38,682 bases of DNA from a virus, in the IMG/VR virus record IMGVR_UViG_3300025929_000032, positions 1 through 38,682 of that record; one strand, written 5' to 3'. The stretch's first letter is position 1. The number at the start of each line of letters is the position of its first letter. Position numbers and translations under genes: made by a program. The notes below the pieces were generated by a model. That model saw only the letters and a list, made by a program, of their open reading frames with translations, was not told where the DNA came from and searched no databases. Below are positions 13,296-38,682 of this stretch, piece by piece.

Positions 13296-13320
13296 GACAG
13301 CAAACAACTCCAGGTAGGAG
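13286..13320 (+). promoter_or_regulatory. Two mini-hairpins before the tail-fibre gene, one containing its SD
   Basis: GTCC-ATGTA-GGAC (13286-13298) includes the stop codon of the upstream gene, and CTCC-AGGTA-GGAG (13308-13320) contains the SD, GGAG, of the tail-fibre gene starting GTG at 13328. Stem sequences differ but the five-base A-N-G-T-A loop is shared with the hairpins at 35837-35899. They may control translation of the fibre gene. Confidence 0.5.
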
Positions 13321-13327
13321 AACACAG

Positions 13328-14512
13328 GTGTCTTACGACGGCTCGGGGACTTTCAACATCAACACGACGGGGCAGCCCGTCGTCACCGGAACGACTATCA
13401 GCTCGACGGCATTCAACGCCCTGACGGCTGATTTGGCAACGGGCCTGTCCACGGCCATGACAAAGGATGGCCAGACCACGCCCACGGCCAATATACCGAT
13501 GGGCAACAACAAAATCACGGGTCTAGCGGCCGGAACAGCGTCCACCGACGCGGCAAATTTCGGGCAGCTCCAGACGTTCGGGGTGCCGGGTTACGCCACC
13601 ACGGCCACGGCGGCGGGGGCCACCACACTCACCGTCGCCGACAAGATCAACCAGTTCTTCACCGGCACGACGACGCAAACCGTCGTTCTCCCGGTCACGT
13701 CCACGCTCGTCCTGGGATTTCAATTCCGCATCGTCAACGAATCGACGGGGCTGGTGACGGTCAATTCCTCGGGGGCGAATCTCGTCGTTGCGTTGACGGC
13801 CAATTCCCAAGCGACACTGACCTGCATCGCCATCACCGGCACCGATGCGGCATCGTGGGATGTGAAATACACCGGCATTACCTCCGTCACCGGAACGGGA
13901 GCGATGGTCCGTGCAACTTCTCCTGCGCTTGTCACGCCCTCCCTCGGGGCGGCATTGGCCACCTCGGTCAACAAAGTAGCGATTACCGCCCCGGCCACCG
14001 GCGCTACGCTTACAATCAGCGACGGCGCGACCTTAACCATCACCTCATCTACGTCTATTGGAGCCGGTCAATACACCGGGACGTCCACGAATGACTCCGC
14101 CGCTGCTGGACTCCTTGGGGAGTACGTCGTCTCCACCATCGCATCCGGGAGCGCGGTCTCCCTGACAAACAACACAGACGCCAACGTAACTAGCATTTCC
14201 CTAACTGCGGGTGATTGGGATGTAAGGGGGCTGGTGACTTTTACCGGAGGGGGCACGACCAACGTCACCGGCGCTCTTATCGGTGGGATCAACACCACAA
14301 GCGCCACGCTTCCGACACCTGGTCCAGGCTACTCGAACGTCTTTGCCTTAAGCACCGGCACCTTCGCCTCGGACGGAGCGATCACTGCTCAAATCGTCCC
14401 CATGAGACTCAGCCTAAACGCGACCACCACGGTCTATCTAATTGCCCGTGCGGTATTCACCACAAGCACCTGTTCGGCTTATGGCTCTATTTCCGCTCGA
14501 CGCGTTCGGTAA
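13328..14512 (+). CDS. Tail fibre / receptor-binding protein
   Basis: 394 residues; GTG start with GGAG 8 bases upstream. The N-terminus MSYDGSGTFNINTTGQPV followed by ISSTAFNALTADLATGLS and PMGNNKITGLAAGTASTDAANFGQL is a recurring pattern in phage fibres, where the first part binds the tail and the NKITGL/DAANFGQL repeat precedes the shaft. The rest is Thr/Ser/Gly/Val-rich beta structure and the C-terminus (about 270-394) is probably the receptor-binding domain. It ends 0 bases from the convergent methyltransferase stop at 14513. Confidence 0.8.
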   Translation: MSYDGSGTFNINTTGQPVVTGTTISSTAFNALTADLATGLSTAMTKDGQTTPTANIPMGNNKITGLAAGTASTDAANFGQLQTFGVPGYATTATAAGATTLTVADKINQFFTGTTTQTVVLPVTSTLVLGFQFRIVNESTGLVTVNSSGANLVVALTANSQATLTCIAITGTDAASWDVKYTGITSVTGTGAMVRATSPALVTPSLGAALATSVNKVAITAPATGATLTISDGATLTITSSTSIGAGQYTGTSTNDSAAAGLLGEYVVSTIASGSAVSLTNNTDANVTSISLTAGDWDVRGLVTFTGGGTTNVTGALIGGINTTSATLPTPGPGYSNVFALSTGTFASDGAITAQIVPMRLSLNATTTVYLIARAVFTTSTCSAYGSISARRVR

Positions 14513-27181: not shown

Positions 27182-27868
27182 CTAAGCCGCTTGAAGCGGG
27201 TTGTTGGAAAGGGCGGTTTCCTGATCCATCAGGACGGCCTCCAGGCGGTCATACCAATCGGGGAGGTCCACCTGAGCCTGATCGACAATCGCTTTGTTGT
27301 CGGCCCATACGCCCTGCGCAGTGGGAAGATCGGTGCAATCCTTGAGGTCTTTGACCAAGGCCGTGATGGCGTTCTTGAGCGCCATCTTCTTCAGCGGTCC
27401 CGTCCAGGCATTGGACGGCGCATCCCGCGCTCCGTCGTTGACGGAGAACGTCTCCTTGGGGGTGCGGGGCTGATTGCCGGACGCCACGTTGCCGTCGTCA
27501 TCTTCCGGTGCCACGCCGACGATGGCCGCCAGTGCATACCGACGGGCGTAGGTGATTGCCGAACCAACGCCCTGCGGATCGTTCTTGACCGGCTTCAGCG
27601 TCAGCCGCCCGCGAATCCACTCCCCAGAAGAATGGGAAAGCGTCGTGACGACGGTCGCGCCATCCGGGCTGTCTTCGGTCGTCTGGATGACCGAAAGCCC
27701 GTGGGTCGAAAGCTGATCCCGGCAGGCATCCCAAACCGATGCCAAATCGGCGTATTTCGATTTGAAGAACGGGTTAGCCGTGTCCTTGGCCGCGCCCTTG
27801 ATCTTGCCCTGCGCCTTCGACAGTGCCTCGGACAGCTTGGCGATCGATTCGCTTTGCATGTCGCTCAT
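27182..27868 (-). CDS. erf: Erf-type single-strand annealing protein
   Basis: 228 residues. The N-terminal domain is typical of the ERF superfamily: KLSEALSKAQGKIKGAAKD (about 10-28), NPFFKSKYADLASVWDACRDQL (about 32-53), GLSVIQTTEDS, LSHSSGEWIRGRL and QGVGSAITYARRYALAAIVGV (about 99-118) followed by DDDGN. These proteins anneal complementary strands in phage recombination and help circularise DNA. The C-terminal 90 residues are variable and helical. It starts in the ATGA overlap with the small protein upstream. Confidence 0.92.
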   Translation of the reverse strand: MSDMQSESIAKLSEALSKAQGKIKGAAKDTANPFFKSKYADLASVWDACRDQLSTHGLSVIQTTEDSPDGATVVTTLSHSSGEWIRGRLTLKPVKNDPQGVGSAITYARRYALAAIVGVAPEDDDGNVASGNQPRTPKETFSVNDGARDAPSNAWTGPLKKMALKNAITALVKDLKDCTDLPTAQGVWADNKAIVDQAQVDLPDWYDRLEAVLMDQETALSNNPLQAA

Positions 27869-34289: not shown

Positions 34290-34514
34290 ATGAAAGCACC
34301 GACCGATATTCGCTCTTTGGCGCGCTCCCATACGGAGGCGGCGATTCGTACGCTCGCGGGCATCATGCGCCAGCCAAAAGCACCCTCTGCCGCTCGTGTC
34401 GCCGCCGCTCAAGCATTGCTCGATCGCGGCTGGGGCAAGGCCGCTCAGTCCATGACTGGTGAGAGTGGAGAGGGTCCGGTCGAACTGGTCATCAAGTGGC
34501 AGTCCGAGAAATAA
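34290..34514 (+). CDS. Possible small terminase subunit or packaging accessory
   Basis: 74 residues. RSLARSHTEAAIRTLAGIMRQ (about 8-28), then SAARVAAAQALLDRGWGKAAQ is a helical motif seen next to large terminase genes in alphaproteobacterial phages. Its end overlaps the terminase start by 19 bases. A short DNA-recognition protein is possible, but it lacks a full small-terminase architecture. Confidence 0.6.
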   Translation: MKAPTDIRSLARSHTEAAIRTLAGIMRQPKAPSAARVAAAQALLDRGWGKAAQSMTGESGEGPVELVIKWQSEK

Positions 34515-35836
34515 CCATCCCCTACACGCCGCGCCCGGCGTTCAGCCCGTTCCACAACCGCCATCAGCGATGGGCCTGTCTGGTCCTGCACCGGCGAGCA
34601 GGAAAAACAGTCTCAGGGATCAACGACCTGATACGAGCTTCGATCACCTGCAAGTTACGCGATCCCCATTTCGCCTACATCGCGCCCTATCGCAGTCAGG
34701 CCAAATCGGTGGCCTGGGATTACCTCAAGCGATATTCGGAACCGATCAGGAGTGCGACCAATGAAGCGGAGCTCAAAGTCACGCTCGTTAACGGAGGGCG
34801 AATCAGTCTTTTTGGAGCAGATAACGCGGATGCTATGCGAGGGCTGTATTTCGATGGCGTCTTTCTTGATGAGTTTGGAGACTATCGTCCGTCAGTCTGG
34901 GGAAATGTCATTCGGCCTACTCTGTCGGATCGACAGGGATGGGCAGTTTTTAGTGGAACTCCAAAGGGCAAAAATCAATTCTGGTCGATCCGCGAGCAAG
35001 CGCGCAAAGACCCGAAGGAATGGTTCCTCCTGACCCTGCCGGCGAGCGTATCCGGCTTGCTTCCTCGATCGGAATTGAGTGCGGCTCGTGCCCAGCTATC
35101 GAAGGACCAATACGAACAGGAATACGAGTGCAGCTTCGAGGCCGCCATCATGGGCGCGTTCTACGGCATCGAGATGCGCGAGCTGACGTTGGCAGGCCAG
35201 ATTACAAAGGTCGAGTGGCAGAAGGATTTACCCGTCTACACCGCATGGGACATTGGGTATCGAGATGACACGGCCATTTGGTTTTATCAGTGCGCCGGGA
35301 ATGAAATTCACGTTATCGACTACTACGCCGTCAGCGGCGCTGATATCTTGGACCTCGCAACTACCGTTGTTGCGAAACCTTATCGCTACGGGAAGCATTT
35401 CCTCCCCCATGACGCCCGCGCAAAGACGCTGGCTGCTGCTGGTAAAAGCGTCATCGAGCAACTTGCCGAACATCTCGGACTGAAGAATCTCGCCATCGTC
35501 CCCGGTCTTTCGGTGCAAGACGGTATTCAGGCTGCCCGCGCCTTATTGCCGAACTGCTGGTTCGACGACGGCAAATGCAGCGAGGGGATCGAGGCGTTAA
35601 GGCAGTATCAGCGCGAATATGATGAGGACAAAAAAGCCTATCGGCAGACGCCACGACACGACTGGACTTCGCATCCCGCCGACGCCTTCCGCATGTTGGC
35701 CATCGCCCATCGTGTGGAACCTTTACAAAAGACACCTGATCCTGGTAGAATACTAATGGTAGGGCCTGATAACCAAGTGACCCTCAACGACATGTGGGCT
35801 GCCCATAAGGCCCAGAGCAATTCGCGGCGCATTTGA
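34496..35836 (+). CDS. terL: Terminase large subunit
   Basis: 446 residues; GTG start at 34496. The ATPase domain has a Walker A-like HRRAGKT (32-38) and Walker B VFLDEF (about 121-126), with SGTPKG as motif III. The nuclease domain shows AWDIGYRDDTAIWF (about 248-261), with metal-binding aspartates, and HDWTSHPADAFR (about 398-409) near the end. It cuts concatemeric DNA and pumps it into the prohead. Middle bases about 34780-34900 are somewhat AT-richer than their surroundings. Confidence 0.93.
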   Translation: MAVREITIPYTPRPAFSPFHNRHQRWACLVLHRRAGKTVSGINDLIRASITCKLRDPHFAYIAPYRSQAKSVAWDYLKRYSEPIRSATNEAELKVTLVNGGRISLFGADNADAMRGLYFDGVFLDEFGDYRPSVWGNVIRPTLSDRQGWAVFSGTPKGKNQFWSIREQARKDPKEWFLLTLPASVSGLLPRSELSAARAQLSKDQYEQEYECSFEAAIMGAFYGIEMRELTLAGQITKVEWQKDLPVYTAWDIGYRDDTAIWFYQCAGNEIHVIDYYAVSGADILDLATTVVAKPYRYGKHFLPHDARAKTLAAAGKSVIEQLAEHLGLKNLAIVPGLSVQDGIQAARALLPNCWFDDGKCSEGIEALRQYQREYDEDKKAYRQTPRHDWTSHPADAFRMLAIAHRVEPLQKTPDPGRILMVGPDNQVTLNDMWAAHKAQSNSRRI

Positions 35837-35899
35837 GCCAGGTAGGCTAGGCCAGGTAGGCCACTCGCCCAGTAGGGCGGGGACATAACCCAGGTAGGG
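35837..35899 (+). repeat. Four mini-hairpins with similar AGGTA loops
   Basis: GCC-AGGTA-GGC (35837-35847), GGCC-AGGTA-GGCC (35850-35862), CGCCC-AGTA-GGGCG (35866-35879) and CCC-AGGTA-GGG (35889-35899) fill the space between terminase and the next gene. Stems differ in sequence yet pair, loops are nearly constant. The last includes the SD of the gene at 35906. Similar ones precede the tail-fibre gene. They may be RNA control or processing elements, or terminase-recognition DNA repeats. Confidence 0.5.
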
Positions 35900-35905
35900 G
35901 ACGCT

Positions 35906-36211
35906 ATGAGCGGAGTGAATCAGCCTTACGGCTATGCGTATGAGACGGTCGCCGCCAGCCAGACCGCGCAGGTCCTGGGGGGCACCGGGGCTGCGGGCGA
36001 TTATCTCCACCGGGTCATTGTCTCGGTAGCCACGTCAGCAACTGGAACCGTCACCCTCCTTGACGGCTCAACTTCAATCATCCTCACCGTCGCCAACACC
36101 CCGGTCGGGATTTACAGCGTCGAGTGCAACATGCTCGCAAGCACCGGGCCGTGGAAGATCACCACCGGCGCTGGCGCCACGGTTATCGCAGTCGGCAAGT
36201 TCTCGGCATAG
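35906..36211 (+). CDS. Small beta-rich virion-type protein
   Basis: 101 residues with GTAGGGG as SD. Thr/Val/Gly/Ser-rich strands (HRVIVSVATSATGTVTLLDG, about 35-54; IILTVANTPVGIYSVE) give a single beta-sandwich appearance. Proteins like this are common between terminase and portal genes in podoviruses and may be head or decoration proteins. No motif identifies a function. Confidence 0.68.
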   Translation: MSGVNQPYGYAYETVAASQTAQVLGGTGAAGDYLHRVIVSVATSATGTVTLLDGSTSIILTVANTPVGIYSVECNMLASTGPWKITTGAGATVIAVGKFSA

Positions 36212-36213
36212 CG

Positions 36214-38325
36214 ATGCCCGAGATCGAGGCCGAGACCCCGCTTCAACGCTATCTTAACGGCATTGCGCTTTATGAACGCGAGTTCAAGAAGTGGGAGACT
36301 CGCGGCACGAAGATCATCAAGAAATACCGCGACGACAATCGCCCCGCCAACAATGACGGGACGGCGAAGTTCAATATCCTATGGTCGAACGTCCAGACGC
36401 TGATTCCAGCGGTCTATGCCAAGCTGCCCAAAGCCGATGTGTCGCGCCGGTTCGGTGATAACGATCCGGTCGGACGGGTAGCCTCGCTCATCATCGAGCG
36501 GGCATTGGATTACGAAATCGAGCATTACCCCGACTTCCGGGCGACAATGAAACATTGCGTCGAGGATCGCTTCCTCCCCGGTCGGGGTGTGTCGTGGGTG
36601 CGCTATGAGCCGCACGTCAAGACACAGGATATTCCCGAGGATGGTCTTGAGGTCACCGAGGATATCGAGACGGGCGAAGGCAAAGACGACGCTGGCGAAA
36701 GTCCAGAGCCGCTCTCAGATGTTGCCGGCCAGCAGGAAGCCCCGGAGGAAATCGATTACGAGTGCGCCCCTACCGATTACGTCCATTGGAAGGACTTCGG
36801 CCATCTTCCCGCCAATGCCCGAACATGGGAGGAGGTAACGGCGGTTTACCGCATCGTCTACATGTCGAAGGACGCACTGGTCGAGCGGTTCGGTGAGAAG
36901 AAGGCCGAAACCATTCCCCTGGATACAGGACCGACCGCACTTAACGGCAACGCCAACAAGAAGAACAACACCCAGGCGCAGATTTACGAGCTGTGGGACA
37001 AGGAAAAGAACACCGCCTATTGGTTCTGCAAGGGCGTCTCCGAGTTCATCGACGAACGCGACGATCCGCTGGGGCTTGAAGGCTTCTTCCCGTGCCCCAA
37101 ACCTCTCTATGCCACCACCACAAGCGACAGCTTGGCCCCGGTGCCGGATTTCGTCCTCTACCAAGATCAGGCCAACGAGCTCGATATTCTCTCGGATCGC
37201 ATCGATGGCTTGGTGAAAGCCCTTCGGGTACGCGGTGTCTACGACGCCTCTGTCCCCGCTCTTCAGCGGCTGATGACCGAGGGTGGCAACAACGATCTTA
37301 TTCCGGTCGCCAACTGGATGGGCTTCAGCGAGAAAGGGGGACTCAAAGGGGCGCTTGATCTTCTGCCACTCGACATGCTCGCGTCTGCTTTGGCGGAGTG
37401 CTATCAGGCCCGCGATAACATCAAGAGCCAGATTTACGAGATCACCGGCATATCCGACATCATCCGGGGTGAAACCGCCGCTTCGGAAACCGCCACCGCG
37501 CAGCAGATCAAGGGCCAGTATGCAGGTCTCCGTCTCCGCTCGATGCAGGACGACGTGGCGCTGTTCGCCACCGAGCTATTGAGGCTCAAAGCCCAGATCA
37601 TCTGCACCAAGTTCCAGGATAAGACCATCTTGGCCTACGCTGCCGCCGATCAACTCAACATCGCCGATCAGCAGATGGTCCCGCAGGCGATGCAGTTGCT
37701 GCGGAGCAACCCGCTCCGAACCTTCCGCATCGATGTCGCGGCCGATTCGCTGGTCCAGTTGGACGAGCAGCAGATGAAGCAGGATCGGACCGAGTTCCTG
37801 ACCGCCATTGGCGGATTCATGGAAAAGGCACTTCCGGTGGCGCAGTCCTCCGCTGCTATGGGACCGGTCATTGCCGAGCTTCTGAAATTCGGAGTGGGTG
37901 CCTACAAACAGGCAAAGCAAATCGAGGGTGTAATTGATCAGGCCCTCGATCAGATGAAGGCCCAGGCCGCTATGCCCCAGCAGCCCCGGCCCGATCCCGA
38001 AATGATCAAAGTCCAGGCTCAGGCGCAGGCCGATCAGCAACGCGCCCAGATCGACGCTCAGTTGCAGCAGGCCAAACAGCAGGCCGAGACGGCCCAGGAA
38101 CAACAGCGGATTCAGATGGAATCTCAGATGGAGGCGCAACGTCTGACGATGGAATCGCGCCTCAAGGCTCAGGAGGCGTCCACGAATGCACTCCTCGATC
38201 AGTGGAAAGCCCGACTGGACGCCGCGACCAAGATCGAGGTCGCTGAGATCACCGCTAAGGCCGGAATCGACGCGGCTGCCCTGGCGGCGGCAAACCAGAC
38301 CGTCAGTTCGGACCTTTCGAAATGA
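36214..38325 (+). CDS. Portal protein, P22 gp1-like
   Basis: 703 residues from ATG 36214 (the 733-aa frame begins in the previous gene). EREFKKWETRGTKIIKKYRDD (about 18-38), FNILWSNVQTLIPAVYAKLPKADVSRRFGD and RALDYEIEHYPDFRATMKHCVEDRFLPGRG are typical of the large podovirus portal family. The C-terminal 130 residues are a Gln/Ala coiled coil (QAQADQQRAQIDAQLQQAKQ), like the helical barrel of P22-type portals. It forms the dodecameric DNA channel at one vertex. ATGA overlap with the next gene. Confidence 0.9.
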   Translation: MPEIEAETPLQRYLNGIALYEREFKKWETRGTKIIKKYRDDNRPANNDGTAKFNILWSNVQTLIPAVYAKLPKADVSRRFGDNDPVGRVASLIIERALDYEIEHYPDFRATMKHCVEDRFLPGRGVSWVRYEPHVKTQDIPEDGLEVTEDIETGEGKDDAGESPEPLSDVAGQQEAPEEIDYECAPTDYVHWKDFGHLPANARTWEEVTAVYRIVYMSKDALVERFGEKKAETIPLDTGPTALNGNANKKNNTQAQIYELWDKEKNTAYWFCKGVSEFIDERDDPLGLEGFFPCPKPLYATTTSDSLAPVPDFVLYQDQANELDILSDRIDGLVKALRVRGVYDASVPALQRLMTEGGNNDLIPVANWMGFSEKGGLKGALDLLPLDMLASALAECYQARDNIKSQIYEITGISDIIRGETAASETATAQQIKGQYAGLRLRSMQDDVALFATELLRLKAQIICTKFQDKTILAYAAADQLNIADQQMVPQAMQLLRSNPLRTFRIDVAADSLVQLDEQQMKQDRTEFLTAIGGFMEKALPVAQSSAAMGPVIAELLKFGVGAYKQAKQIEGVIDQALDQMKAQAAMPQQPRPDPEMIKVQAQAQADQQRAQIDAQLQQAKQQAETAQEQQRIQMESQMEAQRLTMESRLKAQEASTNALLDQWKARLDAATKIEVAEITAKAGIDAAALAAANQTVSSDLSK

Positions 38326-38651: not shown

Positions 38652-38682
38652 CCCCCCCCCCCCCCCCCCCCCCCCCCACCCC
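38652..38682. other. Poly-C tail, probable sequencing/assembly artefact
   Basis: Twenty-six C residues (38652-38677), one A and four C. The other copy of this site has only five C before ACAGGGAG. A run like this is a common result of poly-G read ends in assembly and carries no gene. Confidence 0.8.

Follow-up and report, generated by a model that had tools for sequence, protein, structure and literature searches.

A private array of short AGGTA-loop palindromes between the terminase gene and a 101-aa gene of a tailed phage

A tailed-phage genome from IMG/VR, whose 38,682-bp record is analysed here at its full length as the window, carries four consecutive mini-hairpins with a common AGGTA loop (once AGTA) in the non-coding spacer behind the gene of the terminase large subunit. 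These hairpins are real and a chance origin is unlikely. In 50 of 52 distinct relatives the same junction has no spacer at all, and the array is absent from every one of the 52. Most likely, the array is a slightly unusual palindrome expansion, which is private to one phage lineage and either neutral or passively used.

The array and its genomic setting

The array lies in a stretch formed by the terminase gene, a gene for a protein of 101 aa and the portal gene. The features of this region are as follows.

34496..35836, + strand: terminase large subunit (TerL), 446 aa; stop TGA at 35834-35836; PHROG phrog_2, E 4.9e-34
35834..35838, + strand: TGAGC to the left of the insert, one of two 5-nt direct repeats; direct reading
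35836..35848, + strand: mini-hairpin 1, AGCC-AGGTA-GGCT, 4 bp; palindrome search and RNA fold
35850..35862, + strand: mini-hairpin 2, GGCC-AGGTA-GGCC, 4 bp; palindrome search and RNA fold
35866..35879, + strand: mini-hairpin 3, CGCCC-AGTA-GGGCG, 5 bp; palindrome search and RNA fold
35889..35899, + strand: mini-hairpin 4, CCC-AGGTA-GGG, 3 bp, 3' arm within the Shine-Dalgarno sequence (SD); palindrome search and RNA fold
35896..35900, + strand: putative SD AGGGG, 5 nt upstream of the ATG at 35906; direct reading, role assigned from its position
35902..35912, + strand: possible fifth small hairpin, CGCT-ATG-AGCG, with the start codon as loop; RNA fold
35906..36211, + strand: protein of 101 aa, function unassigned; homologues at most 73% identical, on IMG/VR contigs
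35907..35911, + strand: TGAGC to the right of the insert, second copy of the repeat, partly within the start codon; direct reading
36214..38325, + strand: portal protein, 703 aa; PHROG phrog_12082, E 3e-185

From the stop of the terminase gene (35836) to the next start (35906) the spacer measures 69 nt, and the array is confined to it; the sequence of 35831-35905 is ATTTGAGCCAGGTAGGCTAGGCCAGGTAGGCCACTCGCCCAGTAGGGCGGGGACATAACCCAGGTAGGGGACGCT. Antisense open reading frames cross the array, with no support for any of them as a gene. Searches of PHROG and Pfam with the 101-aa protein gave no match, and the position of its gene between terminase and portal is kept in relatives. The terminase reaches about 73% identity to its IMG/VR relatives, and the phage group has only distant relatives among annotated phage records.

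The ends of the window resemble each other, as positions 1-306 match a part of the last 500 bases over 306 bp with 94% identity, including most of a 109-aa gene, and the right end (38652-38682) consists of about 31 consecutive C. Either two strain variants of a circular or permuted genome were joined in the record, or the ends are an artefact of the assembly.

The sequence-only reading had described four consecutive stem-loops, which keep the AGGTA (once AGTA) loop while the stems change and stay paired, and this description was confirmed by palindrome search and RNA folding. The same holds for its observation that the last hairpin contains the SD of the next gene, since the 3' arm of hairpin 4 overlaps AGGGG. 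For hairpin 1 the proposed GCC/GGC pairing stood, and its length had to be corrected to 4 bp by an extra A-T pair. The units thus form a palindromic repeat with constant loop and variable stems. An RNA fold of 35825-35920 returned exactly the four hairpins of the array and the small CGCU-AUG-AGCG hairpin (z = -2.1), and a DNA fold of the array region gave z = -2.6. As RNA, hairpin 3 extends to 7 bp (35864-35881) by adding a U.G and a C-G pair, where the gain by U.G is present solely in the + strand RNA. The energies of the two strands of the array are nearly equal (-28.5 vs -26.8 kcal/mol).

The junction in related phages

Relatives were collected from IMG/VR by terminase (23) and by portal (80), and the junction was counted in those distinct relatives whose sequence allowed both gene borders, the end of terminase and the start of the 101-aa gene, to be placed (n = 52). 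Here, stop and start overlap by 4 nt (ATGA) in 50 of the 52, and most relatives carry their SD (AGGAG, GGAG or similar) within the C-terminal codons of the terminase. The TerL end of the window aligns with that of the relatives; the 69 nt are therefore an insertion and not extended coding sequence. Other private inserts occur at this junction, a 9-nt spacer in relative L184 and an insert of about 786 nt in L010/L011, which suggests that the junction may tolerate insertions.

The only other copy of the array is found on contig 3300005435_000075, which is identical over 7.1 kb. This copy carries no information on conservation; the stems can be compared only between units of a single array, and their compensation is of this kind. 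The nearest relatives beyond this contig share about 73% TerL identity. With 52 distinct relatives lacking it, the insert resembles a local, possibly recent, expansion of a repeat more than a control element kept by conservation.

These counts also bear on the proposal that a regulatory, processing or packaging element is under selection here, which was not supported: the paired stems are missing in the relatives, which the sequence-only reading itself had named as a refutation, the predicted accessibility of the SD is not reduced (see below) and no Rfam family was found. A conserved cis-regulatory RNA was rejected on the same 50 relatives with a 4-nt overlap in place of a spacer and on the Rfam scan of the array, which yielded only sub-threshold chance matches (11.5 bits vs a gathering threshold of 37.8). 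As pac and cos sites often lie near terminase genes in known phages, a packaging (pac/cos-like) or terminase-binding site adjoining the terminase gene might come to mind. Such a site would be expected in relatives with up to 73% terminase identity as well, yet no such sequence is present there, and we regard this explanation as extremely improbable.

The insert is flanked by TGAGC on both sides, while relatives with ATGAGC have TGAGC once. This is a weak indication that the target was duplicated on insertion or that a tandem duplication left a trace, as the 5-nt repeat includes the stop codon and may be a coincidence.

The terminase genes of two relatives (L017, 2989-5193; L018, 928-3117) carry an in-frame insertion, which starts with CFTGDTEV and ends with VHN-C. 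Matches to the Pfam family Intein_splicing (E 3.5e-8 and 1.3e-7, respectively) lie slightly below the curated cut-off, and the insertions are probably mini-inteins.

Repetition, pairing and translation of the downstream gene

Part of the array is plain direct repetition, with three exact copies of CCAGGTAGG and two of GCCAGGTAGGC, so that the four units are not independent of each other. An explanation at this simplest level would be that CCAGGTAGG is palindromic by coincidence and was duplicated, the outer pairs being coincidental as well. Indeed, repetition of the core alone yields a 2-bp stem in each unit, and in 4 of 300 shuffles of the complete window, made with dinucleotides preserved, some three hairpins with the same loop (4-6 nt) fall within 75 nt. 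However, all triples among the shuffle cases listed have 4-nt loops and none a 5-nt loop. Furthermore, when the repeated CC(AGGTA/AGTA)GG cores were kept fixed and only the other bases of the spacer were shuffled, the extra pairs outside the cores (2, 2, 3, 1 or more) were reached with P = 0.0015, and with P = 0.005 for units 2-4 alone. Repetition by itself therefore does not account for all of the pairing in the stems, for which a single sequence provides moderate evidence, and pure coincidence is rather improbable as the source of the array. A count of such hairpins in shuffled sequence had been suggested together with the first description, and in this comparison the array exceeds the shuffles.

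In a set of 226 sequences (1.77 Mb), which includes the window and copies of its own locus and of which many were chosen for carrying CCAGGTAGG pairs, the only same-loop triples with different stems besides the array are one coding-type repeat and one at 27219 in the window. The latter triple (27219-27273, loop TCCA) was dismissed, as its frequency is no higher than in shuffles.

The ATGA overlap of the relatives suggests that their 101-aa gene is translationally coupled to the terminase gene. The insertion broke this overlap and now supplies the leader and the SD-like sequence of the 101-aa gene, and within 35834-35897 the stops TGA, TAG and TAA cover all three frames. The predicted mean unpaired probability of the SD region is 0.57 in the window vs a mean of 0.51 in 48 relatives, and the start ATG at 35906 is predicted to be 0.88 unpaired. 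Since the predicted accessibility of the SD resembles that of the relatives, an OFF-switch hiding the SD is not indicated, and a translational operator sequestering the SD was rejected because the prediction shows no loss of SD accessibility compared with relatives that lack the array.

A more general version would be a selected leader RNA of the 101-aa gene, whose AGGUA-loop hairpins are bound by a phage or host protein as a translational operator or a processing site. The constant loop above different yet paired stems, the position of hairpin 4 over the SD and the U.G pairing of unit 3, possible in the + strand RNA alone, would fit such a role, as would a solitary AGGTA palindrome at 13308, which likewise covers an SD, namely that of a tail-fibre gene. 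On the other side, the array is missing from every relative at a conserved junction, the predicted accessibility of SD and AUG matches that in those relatives, hairpin 4 has merely 3 bp, Rfam gave no match and both strands fold nearly equally well. Taken together, a selected leader is unlikely, although it would represent a new type of leader control if true.

Phage translational operators, such as the coat hairpins of MS2, PP7 and Qbeta or the RegA and gp43 sites of T4, have a known protein. The array shares with them a small fixed-loop hairpin at the start region; in contrast to them, it consists of four tandem units, is not conserved in relatives and has a hypothetical protein partner. CsrA/RsmA leaders also display several small hairpins with one over the SD. 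CsrA/RsmA sites require GGA in the hairpin loop, and a leader of this kind was discarded since the loops of the array are AGGUA or AGUA and contain no GGA.

The solitary palindrome mentioned above is listed here:

13308..13320, + strand: CTCC-AGGTA-GGAG, 3' arm forming the SD of the tail-fibre gene at 13328

It is the only further AGGTA palindrome with a stem of at least 3 bp on the + strand of the window outside the array, and its position over the SD is possibly due to chance. Relatives of the gene upstream of it were sought to assess conservation, and none were found. On the - strand one AGGTA palindrome with a stem of at least 3 bp is present (8169), AGTA palindromes occur in the window at 338, 22407 and 18279, and CAGGTAG is counted six times on the + strand and not at all on the - strand. 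Dispersed copies of the array were not found in the window, where the palindrome at 13308 is the sole + strand outlier.

Origin of the array and similar palindromes elsewhere

Our preferred explanation, to which we give somewhat better than even credence, is a private insertion of a short palindrome, which was multiplied by local duplication and hairpin-templated copying and now serves as a passive structured leader. We observe the insertion and the repetition; how the stems were copied and that the leader is passive are inferences. A palindrome of the CCAGGTAGG type would have been inserted or duplicated at the ATGA junction and then extended through local duplication, to which the three exact CCAGGTAGG and two GCCAGGTAGGC copies point. 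Hairpin-templated copying, i.e., a strand switch inside a palindrome as it is replicated, could have kept the stems complementary, so that their complementarity would not necessarily come from selection on function. As a consequence, the 101-aa gene would have been unlinked from the translation of the terminase, ribosomes finishing the latter would no longer be at the next start, and initiation would depend on the new SD. If the array has any function, it would then act as a leader that is structured and passive.

Speaking for such a palindrome expansion are the empty sites in 50 of 52 relatives, the TGAGC on both sides and the extra pairing (P 0.0015). Against it, the search brought up no shorter array as an intermediate. 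Furthermore, the position of the last unit, directly on the SD, and an array that makes up the whole leader would fit a selected element too. The constancy of the loop is partly expected from duplication and would follow from a binding protein as well.

Objects of this kind are known from organelle genomes. In the organelles of Volvox carteri, palindromes with a common loop of 3-5 nt and stems of 4-37 nt multiply in spacers, where one may be inserted within another; these short palindromic repeats have a TAAA/TTTA loop and an average length of about 50 nt, and are regarded as selfish DNA (PMC2670323). The array resembles them by hairpin units in a spacer, a constant loop, variable stems and adjacent copies. 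In contrast to these longer and genome-wide repeats, it is GC-rich, with units of 11-14 nt in four copies at one phage site. It has the unit architecture and the spacer location of the organelle repeats, and not their dispersal.

The array represents a clean example of tandem short palindromes arising in a tightly packed phage operon, for which many relatives provide the empty site. It could show that seemingly compensatory stems arise by the mechanics of copying and not by selection on structure, and it cautions against taking the compensation of stems within one array as proof of function.

Alternatively, the array could be a mobile palindromic element (double-hairpin or MITE-like), which inserted at ATGAGC, thereby duplicating TGAGC, and is maybe shared with bacterial hosts. 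Small double-hairpin elements with evidence for mobility have reportedly been found in Allomyces mitochondria, going by the title of a work by Paquin from 2000, which is cited in PMC2670323. Set against the elements named in that title, the array has no second genomic site and just a 5-nt flanking repeat. The TGAGC flanks, if they are a target duplication at the site that is empty in relatives, would fit a mobile element, and so would AGGTA-loop pairs with other stems, which a targeted search revealed in two Kiloniellales MAGs and in a freshwater virus. In the MAGs (L231 627-660 and L232 2241-2272) they read GCC-AGGTA-GGC N6-8 GCGCCC-AGGTA-GGGCGC and lie outside clear coding sequence, with the pair of L232 falling in an open frame of 273 codons, the status of which is uncertain. 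In the virus (one virus, represented by L035, L055, L058, L089 and L098), TGCC-AGGTA-GGCA GGG CTACC-AGGTA-GGTAG stands upstream of a gene.

Searches on a larger scale argue against mobility. A pattern specific for the array (units 2 and 4) matched only the identical contig in IMG/VR, and no second array was found in the window or the other loci examined. In GTDB genomes this array-specific pattern hit seven contigs, of which five appear coding, as judged from large covering frames or a coding-type context, and two are the Kiloniellales pairs. Such pairs occur in just 3 of 61 genomes of this order, two of them being the seeds, and a class-wide check of 385 genomes returned the seed genome alone. 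Among the matches listed for CCAGGTAGG N0-30 CCAGGTAGG in IMG/VR, most resemble pentapeptide-type or other coding repeats; the mixed-loop pattern CCAGGTAGG..CCCAGTAGGG was found on five other contigs, none with the array, and BLAST of the array against phages gave nothing meaningful. Terminal inverted repeats beyond the units are absent, and the 5-nt repeat with its stop codon is weak evidence. Therefore, a mobile element is hardly more probable than the coincidental repeat discussed above.

Less probable still, and in our view quite doubtful, is that the phage, the L035-type viruses and the Kiloniellales MAGs share an undescribed recurrent class of AGGTA-loop arrays, in which a protein would read the loop while the stems drift under compensation. 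A control loop, ATGGA, was found on 3 contigs compared to 10 for AGGTA. An enrichment of AGGTA is not claimed from these numbers, since five of the ten contigs are one virus, others look coding and the control search was small.

Several GGCC-CAGGTA-GGCC palindromes, nearly identical and spaced by TATGCA or TGTGCA, are located immediately 5' of a gene in another phage (L066, around 432-520).
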